The notes below the pieces were generated by a model. The model was not told where the DNA came from. It saw nothing but the letters and a program-made list of their open reading frames with translations, and ran no database searches. Positions 46,159-62,129 of a DNA stretch of 64,000 bases are shown one piece after another. The DNA lies in NCBI GenBank assembly GCA_019751915.1, contig JAIEMS010000018.1, positions 1 through 64,000 on the forward strand. The letters are read 5' to 3'. Position 1 is the first letter of the stretch. The number at the start of each line of letters is the position of its first letter. The position numbers and the translations under genes were made by a program. Origin of the DNA: Burkholderiaceae bacterium. Lineage in GTDB: Bacteria; Pseudomonadota; Gammaproteobacteria; Burkholderiales; Burkholderiaceae_C.

Positions 46159-47127
46159 TCAGTCTGGCATCGCAAACGAATGGTCAATTTGAAAGCGGTT
46201 TGCCAACAGGTTCGATGGCCGCAACATATCGCCATTGGCCAATTGCAAGCATTGGTCGAGGTGGCGCTCCGAGGGAGTCAGCAAGCGACGGTAAATCTCT
46301 TTGCACAACAGGCGCGCGTGGTTGCCGGGCCAGCCTCTGGGCAGCAGCACCTCCGGCAGGCCCGGATCGGGAAGCAAAAGGCGACGAAAATCGTGAATTA
46401 ACAAGATACGTGCCAAAAATGCACCTTCTTCGTCAATATTGCAACTTTTGTCGTGCCGCAAAGCATCCAAAATGGGCTGGTACCGAACCACAAAAGTGCT
46501 GTAAGCGTCCGCCAGCGCCTCAAGGTTCCACGCACGCTGAACCATGTGAGGATCGTTGGCTGTTTGATTGAGTTTAGGGTTGATAGCAACCAATGGCATC
46601 AGATAGGGCACAAGGTCTGCCATACCATCGGTAATCAACGAATCAAACGCCACATCCAAATCGGCGCTGGGGTGGATAAAACAGCCCGTTCCAGTATCGC
46701 CAAAACCCTGCCAATAAAGCGCCCGGCGCAAGCGCTCACGCTGGCGCACATCCAGGTCGCCCACCACCATGATGAGCCGCCACCGCCGATCCCACAGCGG
46801 CGCTTCTGCGGCGTAAATTTGGCGCGAGGCATCCTCAAAGCGGCGGCGACCCGAAGGGGTGAGCATGTAATCGGTGCGCCGACCAGCGGCCTCGGTTTCA
46901 AGCCATTCATCTTTGACGAGGCGAAACACCGTCGTTCGAATCAAGCGCTCATTGATTTCCAGCGGCTGCAGCAGCTTGATCAAGCTGCCAAGCCACACCC
47001 TGCCCCCACGGGGCAAGATGGCATCGCCAAAGACGGAAGTAATCAAAGAGCTGGCTTGGACCCGGCTTTTTTGGCGGAAATTACCCAAGAGAGCCTCAAT
47101 GGCTTGTGACACGATAGGTTCGTTCAT
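46159..47127 (-). CDS. paaX: Phenylacetate catabolon repressor PaaX
   Basis: PaaX represses paa genes and is released by phenylacetyl-CoA. The 322-residue protein has a winged-helix N-terminus (ERLIRTTVFRLVKDEWLE, then GRRTDYMLTPSGRRRFEDA) and the central and C-terminal PaaX domains (RWRLIMVVGDLD, and FLARILLIHDFRRLLLPDPGLP). The ATG at 47127 (MNEPIVSQAIEALL) was chosen; the upstream frame lacks similarity. It is transcribed away from the liv-paa cluster and shares with it a long upstream region containing a candidate operator. Confidence 0.96.
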   Translation of the reverse strand: MNEPIVSQAIEALLGNFRQKSRVQASSLITSVFGDAILPRGGRVWLGSLIKLLQPLEINERLIRTTVFRLVKDEWLETEAAGRRTDYMLTPSGRRRFEDASRQIYAAEAPLWDRRWRLIMVVGDLDVRQRERLRRALYWQGFGDTGTGCFIHPSADLDVAFDSLITDGMADLVPYLMPLVAINPKLNQTANDPHMVQRAWNLEALADAYSTFVVRYQPILDALRHDKSCNIDEEGAFLARILLIHDFRRLLLPDPGLPEVLLPRGWPGNHARLLCKEIYRRLLTPSERHLDQCLQLANGDMLRPSNLLANRFQIDHSFAMPD

Positions 47128-47230
47128 ATGCCGCGTATGGTAAGCGCTGGGGCCACTGGTTTGGCTGCAACAACAAGGTCTCCTCAAAGGAAGGCGACAA
47201 AAAAGCGACGTTACCAGCCCTGAAAAACGA

Positions 47231-47263
47231 TACACATTTGACCAAAATATGAAAAAATGTGTA
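47231..47263. promoter_or_regulatory. Candidate PaaX operator: 9-bp inverted repeat
   Basis: TACACATTT and AAATGTGTA are perfect 9-bp arms with a 15-nt spacer. They overlap a plus-strand promoter-like pair (TTGACC at 47238, TAGTAT at 47262, spacing 18). The site is 104 nt from the paaX start. It fits a dimeric repressor operator by placement; it does not match a PaaX consensus that I can quote with certainty. Confidence 0.45.
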
Positions 47264-47753: not shown

Positions 47754-47804
47754 ATGCAGCCACATGAGCACTACGCATGCACGACATCTGGGAGAACACA
47801 CTGA
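47754..47804 (+). CDS. Possible 16-codon upstream ORF coupled to livH
   Basis: ATG at 47754, with ACGGAGAA 8 nt upstream, opens a short frame MQPHEHYACTTSGRTH that stops at TGA 47802-47804. That stop overlaps the livH ATG (TGATG), so ribosomes leaving the leader would be placed at livH. It contains three His codons but no run of Leu, Ile or Val, so it is not a classical branched-chain attenuator. Confidence 0.35.
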   Translation: MQPHEHYACTTSGRTH

Positions 47805-48679
47805 TGCTGGCCCAGTTTCTGCAATTCCTATTTTCAGGAATCACTGTGGGCGCGACCTATGCGCTCGCTGCCTTGGGCTTTACGTTGATTTACAACGCGA
47901 GCAATGTCATCAACTTTGCCCAAGGCGAATTCATCATGCTCGGTGGCATGTTGGCTGTCTTGTTTGCTCAGATGGGGTTGCCATTGCCTGTGGCCTTGCT
48001 GCTGGCCATTGCCATTCCTGCGGTGGTGGGCATCGTGCTAGAGAAAGTCGCTATCGAGCCGGTCAAAGGTGCCGAGCCTGTGACGTTGATCATCATCACC
48101 ATTGGCGCTTCGTTGGTGATTCGTGGTCTGGTGCAAGTTTGGCTGGGCAAGGGTACGCACGGTATGCCTGCCTTCTCGGGCGATGCGCCAATTCAAATTT
48201 TGGGCGCTACGCTGCTGCCCCAAAGCTTGTGGGTGCTGGGCGTGACTGCTGTGGTAGTGACTGGGCTGTGGTATTTCTTCAGCCGCACATTGACGGGCAA
48301 GGCCATGTTGGCAACGTCTTTTAACCGGGTCGCTGCTGAGTTGGTGGGCATCAACACCAGCTGGGTGCTGTTTATGAGCTTTGCCATGTCAGCGGCGCTG
48401 GGTGCGCTGGGCGGCATTTTGGTAACCCCCATCACCATGACCTCTTACGACGTGGGCATCATGCTGGGTCTGAAGGGCTTCGTCGCTGCCGTCGTGGGTG
48501 GTCTGGGCAACGGCTTAGGTGCTGTTCTAGGCGGTTTGCTGGTGGGTGTGCTCGAAGCCATGGGCGCTGGCTACATTTCATCGGCGTACAAAGATGCCAT
48601 TCCTTTCGTACTGATTTTGTTCATTCTCTTTTTTATGCCGCGTGGTTTGTTCGGCGGTAAATCGACCGACCGGGTGTAA
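47804..48679 (+). CDS. livH: Liv-type ABC transporter permease
   Basis: This 291-residue inner-membrane permease of the HAAT (branched-chain amino acid type) family opens MLAQFLQFLFSGITVGATYA and contains NASNVINFAQGEFIMLGGM and GILVTPITMTSYDVGIMLGL, family hallmarks. The ATG at 47804 has GGGAG 9 nt upstream and is preferred to an ATG at 47777. Within a phenylacetate cluster it probably helps import phenylacetate or a related aromatic acid; that substrate is inferred from context only. Confidence 0.92.
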   Translation: MLAQFLQFLFSGITVGATYALAALGFTLIYNASNVINFAQGEFIMLGGMLAVLFAQMGLPLPVALLLAIAIPAVVGIVLEKVAIEPVKGAEPVTLIIITIGASLVIRGLVQVWLGKGTHGMPAFSGDAPIQILGATLLPQSLWVLGVTAVVVTGLWYFFSRTLTGKAMLATSFNRVAAELVGINTSWVLFMSFAMSAALGALGGILVTPITMTSYDVGIMLGLKGFVAAVVGGLGNGLGAVLGGLLVGVLEAMGAGYISSAYKDAIPFVLILFILFFMPRGLFGGKSTDRV

Positions 48680-48681
48680 CC

Positions 48682-49614
48682 ATGCAAAAGAACGCTTATA
48701 TCGGCCTGGGAATTTTGGTCGCCATCTTGTTGGTGCTGCCTTTCGTCTTGCCCAACAGCTACTACATGGATTTAGCGATCCGCATGGCTATCAACGCCAT
48801 CATCGTCATTGGCTTGAATCTGCTGATCGGTTTTGCTGGACAAATCAGCTTGGGCCATGCCGGCTTTCTGGGCATTGGTGCTTATTCGTCAGCGGTGCTG
48901 CCAACACACTTTGGTTGGCATCCTTTGTTGGCCATGGGGGCTGGCGTACTCATCACCGCAGCCATTGCTGGTTTGGTAGCCCGGCCTATCTTTAAGCTCA
49001 AGGGCAACTATTTGGCAATGGCCACTTTGGGTCTGGGCATCATTATCAATATTGCCCTGCGCAACGAAGCCCAATGGACGGGCGGGCCTGACGGGATGCC
49101 CGTGCCTGCGATGGGTTTGTTTGGCTTTGAATTGACCAGCGATAAGCAATGGTATTGGGTCGTGGCCCTGTTGCTATCGGTCAGTGTTTGGGCATCGCTC
49201 AATTTGATTGATTCACCCTTTGGCCGCGCTCTGCGTGCCTTGCATGGCTCCGAAGTAGCTTCGCAGGTGGTGGGCGTGAATGTGGTGCGCTACAAAGTGG
49301 CTATTTTTGTGATGTCGGCAGTCTTTGCCAGCCTGATGGGCAGCATTACGGCCCACTACATGGGATTTGTGACCCCCACTTTTGCCGACTTCTTCCATTC
49401 GATTGAACTCGTGACGATGGTCGTGGTGGGTGGCATGGCCTCCGTGTTTGGCTCGATTGTGGGTGCGGTGCTCTTGACAGCCCTGCCACAAGCGCTCGCG
49501 ACGTTCGAGGGCTGGGAGACTGTGGTGTTTGGTGCCGTGTTGATGCTGTGCATGATTTTCTTGCCTAAGGGCTTGGTGCCCACGCTGGCAGCGAAATTTG
49601 GCAAAGGAGAATAA
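48682..49614 (+). CDS. livM: Liv-type ABC transporter permease
   Basis: This 310-residue second permease of the HAAT family has NAIIVIGLNLLIGFAGQISLGHAGF and the cytoplasmic-loop segment SPFGRALRALHGSEVASQVVGV that contacts the ATPase. It follows livH by 2 nt and precedes livG by 2 nt. With LivH it forms the transmembrane channel of the aromatic-acid importer proposed for this cluster. Confidence 0.93.
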   Translation: MQKNAYIGLGILVAILLVLPFVLPNSYYMDLAIRMAINAIIVIGLNLLIGFAGQISLGHAGFLGIGAYSSAVLPTHFGWHPLLAMGAGVLITAAIAGLVARPIFKLKGNYLAMATLGLGIIINIALRNEAQWTGGPDGMPVPAMGLFGFELTSDKQWYWVVALLLSVSVWASLNLIDSPFGRALRALHGSEVASQVVGVNVVRYKVAIFVMSAVFASLMGSITAHYMGFVTPTFADFFHSIELVTMVVVGGMASVFGSIVGAVLLTALPQALATFEGWETVVFGAVLMLCMIFLPKGLVPTLAAKFGKGE

Positions 49615-49616
49615 GC

Positions 49617-50378
49617 ATGGCATTGCTGGAAGTCAAAGACTTGTCGATCCACTTCGGTGGTGTCAAGGCCGTTCAGAACGTGTCGTTCAACATCGATGCG
49701 GGCATTGTTTATGCCGTCATTGGGCCTAACGGCGCAGGCAAAACCACCCTGTTTAATCTGATTACCGGGGTTTACAAACCTACCACTGGCGAAATCCGGT
49801 TTGATGGCGAGCCTATTCAAGGCAAGTCGCCCAACCAATTGGCCGAACGGGGCGTAGCGCGGACGTTTCAGAATCTGCAAATTTGCATGAACATGAGCGC
49901 CATCGAAAACGTCATGGTCGGCGCGCACCTGCGGCTTGACCGCAACTTGCTCAAAGCGGCCCTGCGCTGGCCCAGCCTGCGCAGCCGTGATCGTGAATTG
50001 CGCGCTGAGGCCGCCGAGTTAATGCGCTTTGTGGGTCTTGAAAGTTATACCAACGCACGTGCCGAAAGCCTGTCTTACGGCGTACTCAAACGGCTAGAAA
50101 TTGCCCGTGCCTTGGCAATGAAGCCGCGCATTATTTTTCTAGACGAACCGGCTGCCGGTTTGAACCCGAAAGAAACCATTGAGGTAGATCACTTGGTACG
50201 CAAGGTGGCCGACTCTGGCATTACCGTCGTACTGGTGGAGCACGACATGAAGATGGTGATGAACCTGTCTGACCGTATTTTGGTGCTCGATTACGGCAAA
50301 AAACTGGCCGAAGGCACGGGCGAAGAGGTTCGTAAGAATCCGGACGTGATTGCAGCATATTTGGGCGCTCACGCCTGA
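49617..50378 (+). CDS. livG: Liv-type ABC transporter ATPase
   Basis: This 253-residue ATPase has Walker A GPNGAGKTTLFNLITG near residue 40, an atypical signature ESLSYGVLKRLEIARAL (LSYG in place of LSGG, as often in LivG), Walker B PRIIFLDEPAAGLNP, and the switch His in VLVEHDMKMV. It lies 2 nt after livM and 13 nt before the hemerythrin-LivF fusion. The pair of ATPases would be LivG and the fused LivF. Confidence 0.93.
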   Translation: MALLEVKDLSIHFGGVKAVQNVSFNIDAGIVYAVIGPNGAGKTTLFNLITGVYKPTTGEIRFDGEPIQGKSPNQLAERGVARTFQNLQICMNMSAIENVMVGAHLRLDRNLLKAALRWPSLRSRDRELRAEAAELMRFVGLESYTNARAESLSYGVLKRLEIARALAMKPRIIFLDEPAAGLNPKETIEVDHLVRKVADSGITVVLVEHDMKMVMNLSDRILVLDYGKKLAEGTGEEVRKNPDVIAAYLGAHA

Positions 50379-50391
50379 GGGAGCGAGAAAC

Positions 50392-51702
50392 ATGGAAGCA
50401 TTGCGTATCATTTCTGAAGAGCACCAGAACTTCTGGCGCATCGCCATTACGCTGGAGCAAGTGGCCGATGAAATTGACGCTGGAGCACCGGTAGACCCGG
50501 TGTTTTTTCAGTCAGTATTTGAATACATCGAACAATTTGCCGACTACGCGCACCACCTGAAAGAAGATGATTATCTGTTTCGATTGATGCGCTTGCGCTC
50601 AGCCGAATCAGCATCTTTGATTGATGCGCTGCAAGAAGACCACCGCCAAGCCAGCCTCCATTTGGAAGCCATGAAAGCCGAGTTTGCCAACGCTTCTGCT
50701 GGCAACCAGAGTGCCTTGACGGAGTCCTTGCGCGACTATTGCCGCCGCCTGAAAACGCACATTCAAACCGAAGAAACCAAGGCAATGCCGCTGGCACGTC
50801 AGGTTTTGCTTGAGCAAGACTGGGCTGAAATTGACAGCAAATTTCTGGATAACCGCGACCCCGTTTTTGGCGATCAGGCACAAATCAGATTCCGCCAGCT
50901 CTACCACCGTGTGGTCAGTTTTGCCCCGGAATCGGTCGGTCTTGGTGCCCACAGCAGTGGTGTTTTGCAGGCCAATACGGCACCCGGCATGGGTGATGTG
51001 TTGCTCAAAGTCACTGGACTGGAAAGCAGCTATGGCCGCATCAAAGCACTCAAAGGTTTGAATTTAGAAGTGCGCCGTGGTGAAACCGTAGCGCTGGTGG
51101 GTGCCAATGGTGCCGGCAAAACTACCCTGCTGCGCACCCTGTCAGGGGTGCAGCCGATGGGGGCAGGGCAAATTGTCTTCGATGGCGCAGACATCTCACG
51201 GGTACGTTCTGACCAACGGATGCGCCGGGGCATTTGCCAAAGCCCTGAAGGTCGCCAGGTCTTTGGCCCGCTGTCGATTGAAGACAACTTGTACCTTGGT
51301 GCCTACACACAGCCCAAACACCAAGTCCCAGAAGACCTTGAAAAGGTCTATGCCATGTTTCCAATTCTCAAGGAAAAGCGCAAGCTTCCCGCTGGAACCT
51401 TGTCGGGTGGGCAACAACAGATGCTCGCCATCGGTCGTGCTTTGATGGGGCGACCCAAGCTGCTTTTGCTCGATGAGCCATCGATGGGTTTGGCCCCACT
51501 GCTGGTACAAGAAGTGTTCAACGTCGTCAAAGCCCTCAAGGCGCAGGGCATGACCATCATCTTGGCTGAACAAAATGCCTTCGCTGCCTTGGCTTTGGCC
51601 GATCGTGGCTACGTACTGGAAACTGGCGACATCATCCTAACGGGCAGTGGAAAAGATCTGATTCACAACGAGCAGGTGCGCGCAGCATATCTGGGAATGT
51701 GA
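50392..51702 (+). CDS. livF: Hemerythrin domain fused to Liv-type ABC ATPase (LivF)
   Basis: One uninterrupted 436-residue frame has two parts. Residues of about 1-145 are a hemerythrin/HHE four-helix bundle with candidate diiron ligands His11, His54 or His55, Glu58, His84, His123 and Glu127 or Glu128 (EEHQNFW, HHLKEDDYLF, EDHRQ, HIQTEE). Residues of about 203-436 are LivF: Walker A GANGAGKTT at 237-245, signature LSGGQQQML, Walker B LLLLDEPSMGL and the switch region EQNAFAAL, where LivF normally lacks a classical His. A GGGAG site lies 9 nt before the ATG at 50392. An internal ATG at residue 200 has no ribosome binding site, so a separate LivF is not indicated. Hemerythrins bind O2 or act as redox or iron sensors, and the cluster's epoxidase needs O2. 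Oxygen control of uptake is therefore a plausible inference. Confidence 0.85.
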   Translation: MEALRIISEEHQNFWRIAITLEQVADEIDAGAPVDPVFFQSVFEYIEQFADYAHHLKEDDYLFRLMRLRSAESASLIDALQEDHRQASLHLEAMKAEFANASAGNQSALTESLRDYCRRLKTHIQTEETKAMPLARQVLLEQDWAEIDSKFLDNRDPVFGDQAQIRFRQLYHRVVSFAPESVGLGAHSSGVLQANTAPGMGDVLLKVTGLESSYGRIKALKGLNLEVRRGETVALVGANGAGKTTLLRTLSGVQPMGAGQIVFDGADISRVRSDQRMRRGICQSPEGRQVFGPLSIEDNLYLGAYTQPKHQVPEDLEKVYAMFPILKEKRKLPAGTLSGGQQQMLAIGRALMGRPKLLLLDEPSMGLAPLLVQEVFNVVKALKAQGMTIILAEQNAFAALALADRGYVLETGDIILTGSGKDLIHNEQVRAAYLGM

Positions 51703-51822: not shown

Positions 51823-52007
51823 CTGCGCCTTGGTTTTGTATTTTTTGTTTCCCTAGATTCTGTGGTTTAAGGGTTTTCACCCATAAAAAACCGCCCATAA
51901 GTGATACACTTTTTCGAATCTATGTGATTTTTATGTGTTGTTTGCTGTGTCTGACAACACCCAACCCAGTGTCTTTATTTCAGGCTCAAGCCGTATTTGG
52001 AAAAAGC

Positions 52008-53675
52008 ATGTCTCATCCTTTGTTTGAAAAACACCACGCCACGCTGAACGGTGCCTTGCAAGCCATTGCCACCCGTGGTTATTGGGCAGCCTACACGGAA
52101 ATGCCCAGCCCCAAGGCTTACGGAGAGACCGCTGCTGAAGATGGCAAACGCGCCTATGAAGCACATCTGGGCCAAAATTTTGAACTCAACCAACCCGGTC
52201 AAACTGGTTGGACTGGCAACGAAGTCTCGCCTTACGGTGCCGCACTGAACGTGCGCTACCCACTGTGCGACCACGAAGTGCTGGTCGCTGCTGGTGTGGC
52301 TGCCATGAATGGCTGGCAGGCCATTGGCGCACAAGGTCGCACAGGTATTTGCCTGGAAATTTTGGATCGGCTCAACAAGCAAAGTTTTGAAATCGGCCAT
52401 GCCGTGATGATGACCACAGGCCAAGGCTGGATGATGGCCTTCCAAGCCGGTTCACCCCACGCACAAGACCGAGGCCTAGAGGCTGTGGCCTACGCTTGGC
52501 GCGAACAAAGTTTTGTTCCTACCGAATCGGTCTGGGAAAAACCCCAAGGCAAGAATCCAGCACTGGTGATGAAAAAGCATTTCGAGCTGGTGGGACGCGG
52601 TGTCGGGCTGGTGGTCGGCTGTGGCACCTTCCCCACTTGGAATACTTACCCCGGGGTGTTTGCTGCACTGTCAACCGGCAATGCCGTCATCATCAAGCCG
52701 CACAGCAATGCCATCTTGCCTGCGGCCATCACGGTACGCACCATCCGCGCTGTGCTGGCAGAAAACGGTATCGACCCTAACCTCGTCACGCTGTGCACCA
52801 CCGACAACCGCCAAACTACCCAAGCATTGGCGACCCATCCTGATGTCAAGTCAGTTGATTTCACAGGCAGCAATGTGTTTGGGCAGTGGCTGATTGACCA
52901 CTGCAAACAGGCACAGGTGTATGCTGAGTTGGCTGGTGTCAACAACATCGTCATTGACTCCACCAACGCTTACAAAGCCATGCTGGGCAATTTGGCGTTC
53001 ACGCTGTCGCTTTACTCGGGCCAGATGTGTACTACATCCCAAGCGATCATCGTGCCCGCTGACGGCATCGAAACCGATGAAGGCCACAAGAGCTACGAAG
53101 ATGTTTGCGCCGATCTGGCCAAAGCCGTATCACGCTTCTTGTCTAAACCCGAAGTCGCCTTTGCTGTGCTGGGTGCCATGCAGTCCCAAGCCACCACGGA
53201 TCGCGTTGACCATGCCAACAGTGGTCAATTAGGCCGTGTGGTGTTGGCCTCTCAAGCCTTGACCAACCCAGATTTTCCGGATGCACAAGTTCGCACTCCG
53301 GTGCTGCTGGCATGCGATGCTGCCGACGAAGCCGCCTACATGGAAGAGCGCTTTGGCCCGATTAGCTTGGTGGTCAAGGCCGCCGATACCGCAGCGGCCA
53401 TTGCCCTGTCCGAGCGTATTGTCAGTACCCACGGTGCCCTGACAGTCGGCTTGTATTCCACCCGCCAAGAAGTGATTGACGCTATGACCCAAGCGACTTG
53501 GCGCGGCAAGGTAGCGCTGTCTATCAACTTGACCAGCGGTGTGTTTGTCAATCAGTCGAGCGCTTTCTCTGACTACCACGGCACAGGTGGTAATCCAGCT
53601 GCTAACGCTTCTTACGCCGATTCGGCCTTTGTTGCCAATCGCTTTCGCGTGGTGCAACGTCGTTACCACGTCTAA
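52008..53675 (+). CDS. paaN: Phenylacetate degradation aldehyde dehydrogenase PaaN
   Basis: This 555-residue aldehyde dehydrogenase-superfamily protein is of the PaaN type: MSHPLFEKHHATLNGAL at the N-terminus, VGCGTFPTWNTYPG, VDFTGSNVFGQWL and the nucleophile Cys in LYSGQMCTTSQA, with the general-base Glu in VYAELAGVNN. It would oxidise the semialdehyde after ring cleavage of oxepin-CoA. Unlike E. coli PaaZ it has no MaoC-type hydratase domain, so ring hydrolysis needs a separate enzyme. The ATG at 52008 begins the family N-terminus; the frame before it is AT-rich leader. Confidence 0.92.
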   Translation: MSHPLFEKHHATLNGALQAIATRGYWAAYTEMPSPKAYGETAAEDGKRAYEAHLGQNFELNQPGQTGWTGNEVSPYGAALNVRYPLCDHEVLVAAGVAAMNGWQAIGAQGRTGICLEILDRLNKQSFEIGHAVMMTTGQGWMMAFQAGSPHAQDRGLEAVAYAWREQSFVPTESVWEKPQGKNPALVMKKHFELVGRGVGLVVGCGTFPTWNTYPGVFAALSTGNAVIIKPHSNAILPAAITVRTIRAVLAENGIDPNLVTLCTTDNRQTTQALATHPDVKSVDFTGSNVFGQWLIDHCKQAQVYAELAGVNNIVIDSTNAYKAMLGNLAFTLSLYSGQMCTTSQAIIVPADGIETDEGHKSYEDVCADLAKAVSRFLSKPEVAFAVLGAMQSQATTDRVDHANSGQLGRVVLASQALTNPDFPDAQVRTPVLLACDAADEAAYMEERFGPISLVVKAADTAAAIALSERIVSTHGALTVGLYSTRQEVIDAMTQATWRGKVALSINLTSGVFVNQSSAFSDYHGTGGNPAANASYADSAFVANRFRVVQRRYHV

Positions 53676-56529: not shown

Positions 56530-57855
56530 ATGACAGTCAAGACTCCCTCCCCCGGTGATTTGGATCCTATCGAAACCGCTAGCCGGGACGAAATTGCTGC
56601 ATTGCAACTTCAACGCTTGAAGTGGACACTCCAGCACGCTTATGACAACGTGCCCCACTACAAGAAAAAGTTTGACGATAAAGGCGTTCACCCTGACGAC
56701 CTGAAGACGCTGGCCGATATTGCCAAATTCCCCTTCACTACCAAGTCTGATCTGCGCGACAACTACCCCTTTGGTTTGTTTGCAGTGCCACGCACCCAAG
56801 TAGCGCGTGTGCATGCTTCCTCGGGTACTACGGGCAAGCCTACCGTGGTGGGCTACACAGCTAAAGACATCGACACTTGGGCCAACTTGGTGGCGCGCTC
56901 GATTCGCGCAGCCGGTGGTCGCCCCGGCGATATGTGCCACATTGCCTACGGTTACGGTTTGTTCACCGGGGGCATGGGTGCCCACTACGGTGCTGAACGT
57001 GCTGGTTGCACCGTCATTCCGATGTCTGGCGGTCAAACGGAGCGGCAAGTGCAATTGATTCAGGACTTCCGTCCCGACATCATCATGGTCACGCCTTCGT
57101 ACTCGCTGGTGATTGCCGAAGAGTTCGAACGCCAAGGCATCGCCCCCGAAGACATCTCTCTCAAAATTGGTATTTTTGGTGCCGAGCCTTGGGGCGAAGG
57201 CTTGCGGACAGAAATTGAGAAAAAACTCGGCATTGATGCCCTCGATATTTACGGCCTGTCCGAAGTGATGGGGCCAGGTGTGGCCAGCGAGTGCATTGAG
57301 TCCAAAGATGGCCCAGTGGTTTGGGAAGACCATTTTTACCCCGAAATTATCAACACCGAAACCGGCGAACCAGTGGCCGATGGCGAAGAGGGTGAGTTGG
57401 TTTTCACCTCCCTGAGCAAAGAGGCGATGCCTGTTATTCGCTACCGCACCCGCGATTTGACACGTCTTTTGCCTCCAACTTCGCGCAGCTTCCGCCGTAT
57501 GGGGCGCATTACCGGGCGCTCGGACGACATGCTCATCATTCGGGGTGTCAATGTGTTCCCGACGCAAGTTGAAGAACAAATCTTGCGCGACAAGCGCTTG
57601 GCAGGCGTTTACCAAATTCAACTGACCCGCGAAGGGCACATGGACAACGTCGAAATTCGCTGCGAATTGCAACGCGAGTTCTCTGGCAAATTGACCCCTG
57701 CCGAAGTGCAGCAAGTCGCCAAAGAGTTGCAACAGCGCATTAAGACCATCATCGGAATTTCTACCCGCGTCGCTGTGCTCGACGCTGATGCCGTACCACG
57801 CACCCAAACCGGCAAGGCCCGCCGGGTGGTCGATGAACGTCCGAAACAAGTCTAA
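56530..57855 (+). CDS. paaK: Phenylacetate-CoA ligase PaaK
   Basis: This 441-residue AMP-forming ligase activates phenylacetate with ATP and CoA. It has the P-loop HASSGTTGKPTVVGYT near residue 95, the YGYGLFTGGMGAHYG substrate region, DIYGLSEVMGPGV and the hinge GRSDDMLIIRGVNVFPTQVE. PaaK-type ligases are soluble and specific for arylacetates, supporting phenylacetate as the cluster's substrate. Confidence 0.97.
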   Translation: MTVKTPSPGDLDPIETASRDEIAALQLQRLKWTLQHAYDNVPHYKKKFDDKGVHPDDLKTLADIAKFPFTTKSDLRDNYPFGLFAVPRTQVARVHASSGTTGKPTVVGYTAKDIDTWANLVARSIRAAGGRPGDMCHIAYGYGLFTGGMGAHYGAERAGCTVIPMSGGQTERQVQLIQDFRPDIIMVTPSYSLVIAEEFERQGIAPEDISLKIGIFGAEPWGEGLRTEIEKKLGIDALDIYGLSEVMGPGVASECIESKDGPVVWEDHFYPEIINTETGEPVADGEEGELVFTSLSKEAMPVIRYRTRDLTRLLPPTSRSFRRMGRITGRSDDMLIIRGVNVFPTQVEEQILRDKRLAGVYQIQLTREGHMDNVEIRCELQREFSGKLTPAEVQQVAKELQQRIKTIIGISTRVAVLDADAVPRTQTGKARRVVDERPKQV

Positions 57856-59111: not shown

Positions 59112-60257
59112 ATGAAATTCAAAATAAAGCAGATCGCTATTGGTGCAGTATTGGCCTTGGGTACCCTGACCGCTATGGCGGCAGACGCCATCAAAATTGG
59201 CACCGTGTTGTCGGTGACGGGGCCGGCTGCATTTTTGGGCGACCCTGAGCTTAAAACACTGCAAATGTATGTGGAAGAGCTCAACGCTAAGGGCGGTGTC
59301 TTGGGGCGCAAGCTTGAATTGGTGCACTACGACGATGGCAGCGACGCTAACAAAGCCAACGGCTTTGCCAAGCGCTTGATCGAGAACGACAACGTCGATG
59401 TCATCATTGGTGGCACAACCACCGGGGCCACGATGTCGATGGTGCCTTTGGTGACAAAGGCCGAAGTTCCGTTTGTCTCGCTGGCGGGTGCTGTAGTGGT
59501 GGTCGAACCGGTGAAAAAGTGGGTTTTCAAAACCCCCCATACTGACCGCATGGCCGCTGAAAAAGTTTTCGACGACATGAAAAAGCGCGGCATCAGCAAG
59601 GTAGCGCTGCTGTCGGAAACCAGCGGTTTTGGTCAATCGGGCAAAAAAGAAACTGAGGCGGTGGCTGCCAAGTACGGCATCACCTTGGTGGCAAACGAAA
59701 CCTACGGCCCCAAAGACACCGACATGAGCCCGCAGATCACCAAGATCAAGGGCACGGCGGGGGTGCAAGCGGTGTTTGTCTTTGGTCTGGGCCAAGGCCC
59801 GGCTATCGTTACGAAGAACTACAAACAATTGGGCGTGACCCTGCCGCTGTACCACGCCCACGGCATTGCCTCGGAAGAGTTCATCAAACTGGCAGGGCCA
59901 GCAGCCGAGGGTGTGCGTCTGCCCGCATCGGCCTTGTTGGTCGCTGACAAGCTGCCCGCTAACGACCCACAAAAACCAGTGGTTGTGGCTTACGCCAAAG
60001 CATTCCAAGAGCGTTGGAAAACCGATCCTTCCTCGTTTGGCGGTCATGCCTACGACGGCTTGATGATGACTGTGGATGCCATCAAGCGTGCCAACAGCAC
60101 CGACAAGACCAAAGTGCGTGATGCACTGGAAAGCACCAAGGGCTATATCGGCACCGGTGGCACGGTCAACATGTCGGCCACTGACCACATGGGCTTGAAT
60201 CTCTCTGCCTTTCGCATGCTCGAAATCAAGGGCAGCCAGTGGCAACTGCAACCGTAA
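59112..60257 (+). CDS. Periplasmic substrate-binding protein of the Liv-type transporter
   Basis: This 381-residue receptor has a signal peptide (MKFKIKQIAIGAVLALGT, cleavage after AMA). The LivK-like type I periplasmic fold contains IKIGTVLSVTGPAAFLGDPE, LVHYDDGSDANKA and VFVFGLGQGPAIVTKN. It is most likely the receptor for LivHMGF, although six catabolic genes separate it from the permeases. By context it binds phenylacetate or a similar aromatic acid; this is not shown by sequence. Confidence 0.88.
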   Translation: MKFKIKQIAIGAVLALGTLTAMAADAIKIGTVLSVTGPAAFLGDPELKTLQMYVEELNAKGGVLGRKLELVHYDDGSDANKANGFAKRLIENDNVDVIIGGTTTGATMSMVPLVTKAEVPFVSLAGAVVVVEPVKKWVFKTPHTDRMAAEKVFDDMKKRGISKVALLSETSGFGQSGKKETEAVAAKYGITLVANETYGPKDTDMSPQITKIKGTAGVQAVFVFGLGQGPAIVTKNYKQLGVTLPLYHAHGIASEEFIKLAGPAAEGVRLPASALLVADKLPANDPQKPVVVAYAKAFQERWKTDPSSFGGHAYDGLMMTVDAIKRANSTDKTKVRDALESTKGYIGTGGTVNMSATDHMGLNLSAFRMLEIKGSQWQLQP

Positions 60258-61115: not shown

Positions 61116-62129
61116 ATGTACACGCAATCTTTCAGTGTGCCGGATGAATCCGGACAAACGCATGTCAAAGTAGTGGCATCCGCCGAGTCTGCTGAGTTGA
61201 TGGCACGTTTTGATGCCTGCATTGATGCAGATGGCCGTATTGAGCCACAAGACTGGATGCCAGAGGCCTACCGCAAAACCTTGGTGCGCCAAATCAGCCA
61301 GCATGCACACAGCGAAATCGTCGGTATGTTGCCCGAAGGCAACTGGATCAGCCGTGCGCCCAGCTTAAAGCGCAAGGCGATTTTGATTGCCAAAGTGCAA
61401 GACGAAGGTGGTCACGGTCTGTATCTGTACAGCGCTGCTGAAACTCTGGGCACCAGCCGCGACCAGTTGCTGGAAAACCTGCACAGTGGCAAGGCCAAAT
61501 ACAGCTCGATTTTCAATTACCCAACACTGAACTGGGCCGATGTCGGCGTGATTGGTTGGTTGGTCGATGGCGCAGCCATCATGAACCAAATCCCACTGTG
61601 CCGTTGCAGCTACGGCCCTTACGCCCGTGCGATGGTGCGCGTGTGCAAGGAAGAATCTTTCCACCAACGCCAAGGCTACGAAGCCCTGCTGGTGATGATG
61701 CGCGGCACCGATGAGCAAAAAGCCATGGTGCAAGACGCAGTGAACCGCTGGTGGTGGAAGTGCTTGGCCATGTTTGGCCCCACCGATGCCGATAGCCCCC
61801 ACAGCGCCCAAGGTATGCGCTGGGGTATCAAGCGCATTAGCAACGATGACCTGCGCCAAAAATTCATTGATGCCACCGTGCCCCAAGCCAAGGTGTTGGG
61901 CGTGACGTTGCCCGATCCAGATTTGAAGTGGAACGAAGAGCGCGGTCACTACGACCACGGTCAAATCGACTGGGATGAATTCTGGAGCACCGTCAACGGC
62001 AACGGCCCTTGCAACAAAGAACGCCTTTCCACCCGTGTCAAGGCACACAACGATGGGCAGTGGGTGCGTGATGCAGCCATGGCATATGCCCGCAAACAGC
62101 AACAACGTACATTGAAGGAGGCAGCATGA
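61116..62129 (+). CDS. paaA: Phenylacetyl-CoA epoxidase catalytic subunit PaaA
   Basis: This 337-residue diiron monooxygenase subunit epoxidises the aromatic ring of phenylacetyl-CoA using O2. Candidate iron ligands lie in two ExxH motifs: Glu97/His100 ([10 protein letters not shown]) and Glu180/His183 ([12 protein letters not shown]), with Glu67 in HSEIVGM. AAGGAG precedes the ATG. Its end overlaps the paaB start in ATGA. It begins the paaABCDE block. Confidence 0.98.

Follow-up and report, generated by a model that had tools for sequence, protein, structure and literature searches.

The HHE-livF gene and its operon

In the window (the whole stretch of 64,000 nucleotides that was analysed), a single uninterrupted frame was found to encode a 436-residue protein composed, in order, of a hemerythrin-type HHE bundle, a C-terminal extension, a linker and a complete LivF-type ABC ATPase (Table 1). 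The gene starts with ATG 13 bases past the livG stop codon and has GGGAG just upstream. NCBIfam models named PaaG, PaaH, PaaI, PaaD and a 3-oxoadipyl-CoA thiolase (paaJ here) in the window in addition to the paa genes of Table 1. The original prediction had placed the gene in the transport part of a phenylacetate cluster, and the map agrees with this: the fusion follows livH, livM and livG, directly precedes paaN, and has paaX, G, H, I, K, A and D near it. Judging from this operon context, the substrate of the importer is very probably phenylacetate or a related aromatic acid, and the periplasmic binding protein likely belongs to the same importer.

Table 1. Positions of the HHE-livF gene, its protein parts and neighbouring genes in the window
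Feature	Positions	Strand	Basis or remark
HHE-livF fusion ORF	50392-51702	+	one uninterrupted frame, 436 codons and stop
HHE hemerythrin-type four-helix bundle, residues 1-135	50392-50796	+	Pfam PF01814
C-terminal extension, residues 136-176	50797-50919	+	two helices; also in stand-alone relatives
Flexible linker, residues 177-202	50920-50997	+	pLDDT <50 at 176-199
LivF-type ABC ATPase, residues 203-436, and stop codon	50998-51702	+	
livG, partner ATPase	49617-50378	+	Pfam ABC_tran and BCA_ABC_TP_C
livM permease	48682-49614	+	Pfam BPD_transp_2
livH permease	47777-48679	+	ORF from first start codon; Pfam BPD_transp_2
Periplasmic binding protein	59112-60257	+	clusters with L122:17155-18303, itself Pfam Peripla_BP_6
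paaX, divergent regulator	46159-47235	-	TIGR02277 above cut-off
paaN, directly downstream of fusion	51924-53675	+	TIGR02288 above cut-off
paaK, phenylacetate-CoA ligase	56530-57855	+	TIGR02155 above cut-off
paaA, phenylacetyl-CoA epoxidase subunit	61116-62129	+	TIGR02156 above cut-off

Pfam analysis placed the Hemerythrin domain (PF01814) at residues 4-135 (E 1.8e-16; 61.2 bits against a cut-off of 25.3), where it covered profile positions 3-127 of 127 and hence the whole domain, and ABC_tran at residues 220-364 (E 6.6e-31). The Walker A (GANGAGKTT, 237-245), signature (LSGGQ, 337-341) and Walker B (LLLLDEP) motifs are intact and, together with the livHMG partners, mark the protein as an ATPase of the LivF/HAAT kind. 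The best NCBIfam model was LivF (NF008626; residues 201-435), which scored 270.8 bits where the cut-off is 441, so that the ATPase is LivF-like, lies outside that equivalog and bears the name LivF by similarity. Its best Foldseek match was 1ji0, with 52% identity.

A separate structure model of the HHE part (pLDDT 92.3) showed four long helices (2-29, 36-69, 71-101 and 107-138) and two short ones, the predicted four-helix bundle of the HHE superfamily, and its closest solved folds were 2p0n (TM 0.64/0.76, E 0.048) and 3cax (E 0.078), both weak by Foldseek E-value. The extension has modelled helices at 141-152 and 165-177, and its D143 and W144 were invariant across 41 aligned HHE proteins, fused and stand-alone together. 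Among the aligned fusions, residues 136-190 were better conserved than the bundle (0.794 vs 0.716) and the lowest conservation fell at residues 191-203 (0.536). In the whole-protein model (pTM 0.53) the linker was disordered at 176-199 and the placement of the domains relative to each other was of low confidence.

Recurrence of the fusion in other genomes

A scan of named genome contigs with nine rows of the HHE part gave 403 pattern matches, of which 100 loci were confirmed and 80 were kept. The frame ran from HHE into the ABC ATPase in all 80, with Walker A in every one and LSGG in 79; 74 of them stopped at 434-446 residues, L092 stopped at 393 and five left the locus end. The genera included Malikia, Giesbergeria, Simplicispira, Rhodoferax, Polaromonas, Dechloromonas, Azonexus, Zoogloea, Glaciimonas and Brachymonas. 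Alignment set A3 held 53 of 54 sequences (L096 was left out), rows more than 93% identical and lengths outside 430-442 having already been removed.

With the window's own genome counted throughout, a joint query of residues 1-222 matched in 9 of 100 related genomes, strong matches with frames of 439-546 residues occurred in at least 12 of 399 genomes of the family sample, and HHE and ATPase shared one frame in at least 7 of 250 genomes of the order sample and at least 4 of 398 of the phylum sample. These prevalence counts are lower bounds, since just 8-13 first-look candidates per genome were scored in the family, order, phylum and 300-genome samples. A thirteenth family-sample fusion, that of G384, translated without a stop. 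Besides the window's genome, the phylum sample yielded G743, G808 and G842, which belong to one genus of the window's class in a different order (we infer Gammaproteobacteria in the NCBI sense); in all three the fusion sits after a binding protein gene and livHMG and a paaX-like gene is present. At L267, paaA-, paaK- and paaJ-like genes were in view beside the fusion.

The fusion is genuine and has been conserved for a long time. The original prediction of one frame joining an HHE bundle to a full LivF-type ATPase was thus confirmed by the 436-residue frame, the Pfam matches, the intact motifs and the 80 of 80 loci, and the frameshift or assembly artefact that it had named as a possible refutation is excluded by those in-frame loci together with genomes of more than one order. 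The codon of residue 203 is a possible start in most of the 81 aligned rows (GTG in 54, TTG in one), as is that of residue 210 (ATG in 52, GTG and TTG in one each), and the GTG and ATG could act as internal starts; no internal ATPase start near the junction was found to be common to all 81 rows, and a joining of two genes by error, or two proteins made separately, is extremely improbable. Among the matches listed in the literature searched, by titles and abstract beginnings, no hemerythrin-ABC ATPase fusion appeared, in line with the original prediction, which knew of no such described system.

Gene neighbourhood of the fusions

By bit cut-offs that the analyst set, one or more of paaN, H, I, K, X and A could be called in 59 of the 80 scan loci; for the 40 loci with at least 20 kb of sequence the figure was 34. 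Across 86 loci (the 80 and six others), a ferritin-like protein of about 342 residues occurred in 28, a BenC/PaaE-like reductase in 27, an FAD monooxygenase in 20 and paaA in 4; whole-genome searches of 12 fusion genomes located paaA in seven. The reading that the architecture recurs only beside paaABCDE was therefore rejected, given the loci with an FAD monooxygenase or the ferritin-like protein and the presence of paaA in just those seven genomes. A link to denitrification likewise found no support, because NosZ, a rough proxy for life at low O2, was over its cut-off in 3 of 9 fusion genomes vs 26 of 91 others and was absent from the window's genome.

The ferritin-like motifs of the 342-residue protein are the analyst's reading. 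Its gene and that of the reductase lie upstream of livH, often between paaN and the liv genes (for example at L063:4969-5997 and L060:6233-7324). Cluster member L083:5044-6180 had no Pfam match at E<=1e-5 and no NCBIfam match at E<=1e-15, and the L063 protein had no PDB sequence match at E<=1. Three of the five fusion genomes without a paaA match carry it (L083, L086, L068), and the protein is a candidate for an undescribed diiron oxygenase. At L071, L076, L080, L088 and other loci a different cassette lies downstream of HHE-livF. Three of its genes encode proteins with a metallo-beta-lactamase fold, an FAD monooxygenase and a glyoxalase-like character, respectively, and a fourth conserved gene, presumptively labelled FAAH, had no NCBIfam match at E<=1e-15; at the four named loci this cassette leads on to paaN, G, H and I.

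Candidate iron site and class of the HHE domain

All residues listed as candidate diiron ligands in the original prediction are present in the window fusion. Six of them (His11, His54, Glu58, His84, His123 and Glu127) occur together in 80 of the 81 aligned fusions, and every one of 47 stand-alone HHE relatives has them as well. His55, which had also been named, is probably a non-ligand, since it pairs with Met in YtfE and is Arg in fusion L245. The one exception among the aligned fusions is L125 (H11R, E58K, E127D), and fusions L256-L258 carry E58T, H84Y and H55S plus a His at 88, which might replace the lost ligand; the candidate site is thus altered in four fusions altogether, and in each of them the fusion is retained.

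Five of the six positions (H54, E58, H84, H123, E127) aligned with H128, E132, H159, H203 and E207 of YtfE chain 7bhc, which we take to be the iron ligands of YtfE, and H11 fell outside the aligned stretch; with that proviso, the sequence has the four His and two Glu of a YtfE/FBXL5-type diiron HHE protein. A profile search with the HHE part returned YtfE, under the name 'iron-sulfur cluster repair protein', and FBXL5 among 14 matches at E<=10. Their E-values of 0.0004-0.005 indicate weak sequence similarity, even though both share the PF01814 bundle with the fusion. To our knowledge, none of the known HHE proteins of this type is fused to an ABC ATPase.

O2-binding hemerythrins have an HxxxH motif in the third helix. 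In 80 of the 81 fusions there is no His at 87-89, and Pro occupies position 88 in 68 of the 81, so the missing fifth His lowers the O2-carrier reading; no O2-carrier hemerythrin chain occurred among the 14 profile matches, and on the two results together an O2-carrier identity was rejected. As far as sequence can tell, the ligand set is of the four-His YtfE type, not the five-His O2-carrier type. The hemerythrin set is given as five His, one Glu and one Asp in PMC9388753, and PMC4919030 describes the O2-binding type as a monophyletic subgroup and the FBXL5 site as one that does not bind oxygen.

Asp59 was found in 81 of 81 aligned fusions, in 13 of 13 livF-adjacent stand-alone HHE proteins and in 6 of 34 other stand-alone ones, and the equivalent residue is Glu in fusion L245. 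Asp59 is possibly a mark of a transporter-linked HHE type.

Stand-alone HHE genes and their pairing with livF

Nine of the 12 fusion genomes also contained stand-alone HHE matches, 16 in all, that have this extension, and stand-alone proteins share the full-length fold and extension at 24-37% identity to the fused HHE. Within short flanks, livF adjoins nine of these 16 (L194-L209), three of nine in the family sample (L142-L150) and none of 21 in the relatives sample (L018-L038), which with L222 gives 13 of 47 stand-alone genes beside livF and 34 of 47 away from it. Larger regions covered 12 of the 16 plus L222 (G001) and left out L197, L200, L201 and L206, none of them beside livF; in 10 of these 13 regions HHE immediately follows livF in the same orientation. 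In a second sample livF lay beside none of 33 stand-alone loci, some of which are the same places as before. There were also 11 order-sample matches without a locus, one of them having the contig number and coordinates of L204, which is beside livF.

The 13 livF-adjacent HHE proteins required four label changes on either HHE tree, which indicates that the pairing is clustered and does not form one clade. The LivF proteins of adjacent-HHE loci fell outside the fused group in the first LivF tree, in which long branches were flagged. Ten proteins from six of these loci were scanned, and those that could be named, from five loci, included a BphD-like hydrolase, 4-hydroxy-2-oxovalerate aldolase and 2-keto-4-pentenoate hydratase of meta-cleavage, AndAc/AndAd-like (anthranilate) dioxygenase subunits below cut-offs, and an MhpA-like FAD hydroxylase. 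Judged by these matches, the identified neighbours serve O2-using aromatic pathways.

In benzoate clusters with BenR/BoxR, COG3945 HHE genes have been described close to an ABC transporter for benzoate, with a role called unclear, and the available text of that report ties them to such clusters and not to the ATPase of the transporter (PMC6449761). We infer that the stand-alone relatives found here are COG3945 proteins. Those of betaproteobacterial aromatic clusters are separate genes, unlike the fusion, and several of the relatives found here lie directly after livF.

Further joined or neighbouring transporter genes were noted. ORFs of about 950 residues (L210:7722-10580, L211:8126-10987, L212:7987-10848) with a LivG-matching ATPase part and a permease-like start share operons with a stand-alone HHE gene, and the annotation of Azospirillum B510 includes a protein that joins ATP-binding and permease parts. 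At L019 (G069) a stand-alone HHE gene at 2070-1507 has a LivM-like stretch directly upstream and no LivF-like match within the 3.6 kb examined.

Phylogeny, loss and selection

The first HHE tree used 16 of the 81 aligned fusions and L141, and the second used 11 of the 81 with seven others and 15 of the 33 second-sample stand-alone proteins, L206 being omitted as a long branch. The fused HHE domains, including those of G743, G808 and G842, grouped together (18 rows; 98/86, the branch being present in 98% of bootstrap trees). A second LivF tree, with 17 of the 81 aligned fusions, ten others and close unfused relatives, needed five changes between fused and unfused states, at least four of them forced by starred branches, which can be interpreted as one fusion followed by losses or by LivF replacement. 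Such a history is likely from the trees, and several independent fusions are possible. Sixty genomes and the first tree had suggested that all close LivF proteins are fused, a view that 300 genomes and the second tree overturned.

The clearest loss is at L277 (G537), where a LivF 80% identical to that of the window begins right after livG and the locus contains no HHE. This LivF is sister (98/85, second LivF tree) to the fused L276 of G611 in the same genus; the two genes next downstream begin alike in both genomes, and the upstream part of G611 lies beyond the contig end. G537 has retained livHMGF together with paaN, G, H, I, K and X, so that the operon stands without HHE and the HHE part is dispensable for it. 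In 12 pairs chosen by the analyst, dN/dS was 0.03-0.34 for HHE vs 0.02-0.17 for the ABC part, and HHE evolved faster in all 12; the ratios indicate that HHE is under purifying selection.

Comparison with known systems

HAAT-type importers (LivHMGF) have the same gene order and ATPase motifs, and the N-terminal HHE domain is what the fusion has in addition. MalK, MetN and OpuA also carry an extra, possibly sensory domain on the ATPase, although the domain types and signals differ from HHE. DcrH, Bhr-DGC and Bhr-HD-GYP resemble the fusion in joining a hemerythrin-type domain to an output domain, but, as described in PMC9388753, they are of the five-His O2-binding type and have chemotaxis and c-di-GMP as outputs. 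Neither 'transporter' nor 'ABC' appears in the main text of that paper, and 'ABC', 'transporter' and 'ATPase' are absent from the main text of PMC4919030.

Possible roles of the fused domain

We give an even chance to the reading that HHE-LivF is a LivF ATPase with a tethered accessory diiron module, by which import is tuned according to iron, redox or O2 state. The flexible linker would hold a YtfE-like module on the LivF ATPase of the importer, the bundle would bind two irons, and their occupancy or oxidation state would track cellular iron, O2 or reactive species. The state of the domain would in turn alter ATPase activity or complex assembly, and uptake would be matched to the capacity of the O2-using ring-attack enzymes; HHE would be a tuning part that transport itself does not need. 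This reading is suggested by the retention of the ligands in nearly all fusions and in the stand-alone proteins, the repeated pairing of HHE with livF at several places of the HHE tree, the five positions shared with YtfE, purifying selection, the single group of fused domains and the HHE-less operon of G537. The altered sites of L125 and L256-L258, the lack of NosZ enrichment, the low-confidence domain placement, the faster evolution of HHE than of the ABC part and the many stand-alone HHE genes away from livF (34 of 47 and 33 of 33) count against it. More broadly, and at something short of an even chance, a class of ABC importers for aromatic acids may have HHE proteins as subunits that sense redox state or iron. 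These would be encoded separately next to several LivF lineages and fused in one ancient lineage, and would slow uptake when iron or O2 for ring attack is short.

Alternatively, HHE may not regulate transport and may act at the membrane as a local handler of iron or oxidants (an iron store, or a scavenger of peroxide or NO) that protects or feeds the iron enzymes of the pathway. The YtfE profile match, with its repair-protein name, and the flexible tether of the model are consistent with this, and protection or an oxygen store or scavenger was suggested for COG3945 HHE in benzoate clusters in the available text of PMC6449761. A local handler leaves unexplained why the partner is LivF and not an oxygenase, and the four fusions with an altered site speak against it; we consider it unlikely. 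The bundle could also be a structural or assembly part that makes the pairing of LivG with LivF more stable or provides a docking site for a partner such as PaaK, any metal being secondary or only stabilising the fold. Such a part would account for the persistence of the fusion in L125 and L256-L258 and for the better conservation of residues 136-190 than of the bundle, but the near-universal six ligands and the standing of the G537 operon without HHE argue against it, and we regard it as improbable.

O2 gating by a hemerythrin, as first proposed, was not upheld: the fifth His is absent, no O2-carrier chain was among the 14 profile matches, the fusion also occurs away from paaABCDE, four sites are altered, one species lacks the domain and NosZ is not enriched. 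A redox-, iron- or O2-dependent regulatory role is possible on the sequence features described.

If true, iron or redox state would act directly on uptake through a diiron module that the ATPase of an aromatic-acid importer carries, and the aromatic-cluster HHE genes whose part is called unclear in the available text of PMC6449761 would gain a role. The fusion, the separate operon pair and the natural HHE-less orthologue within one genus form a ready-made comparison set. Through HHE-LivF a cell may be able to adapt how much aromatic food it takes up to its iron or oxygen status.
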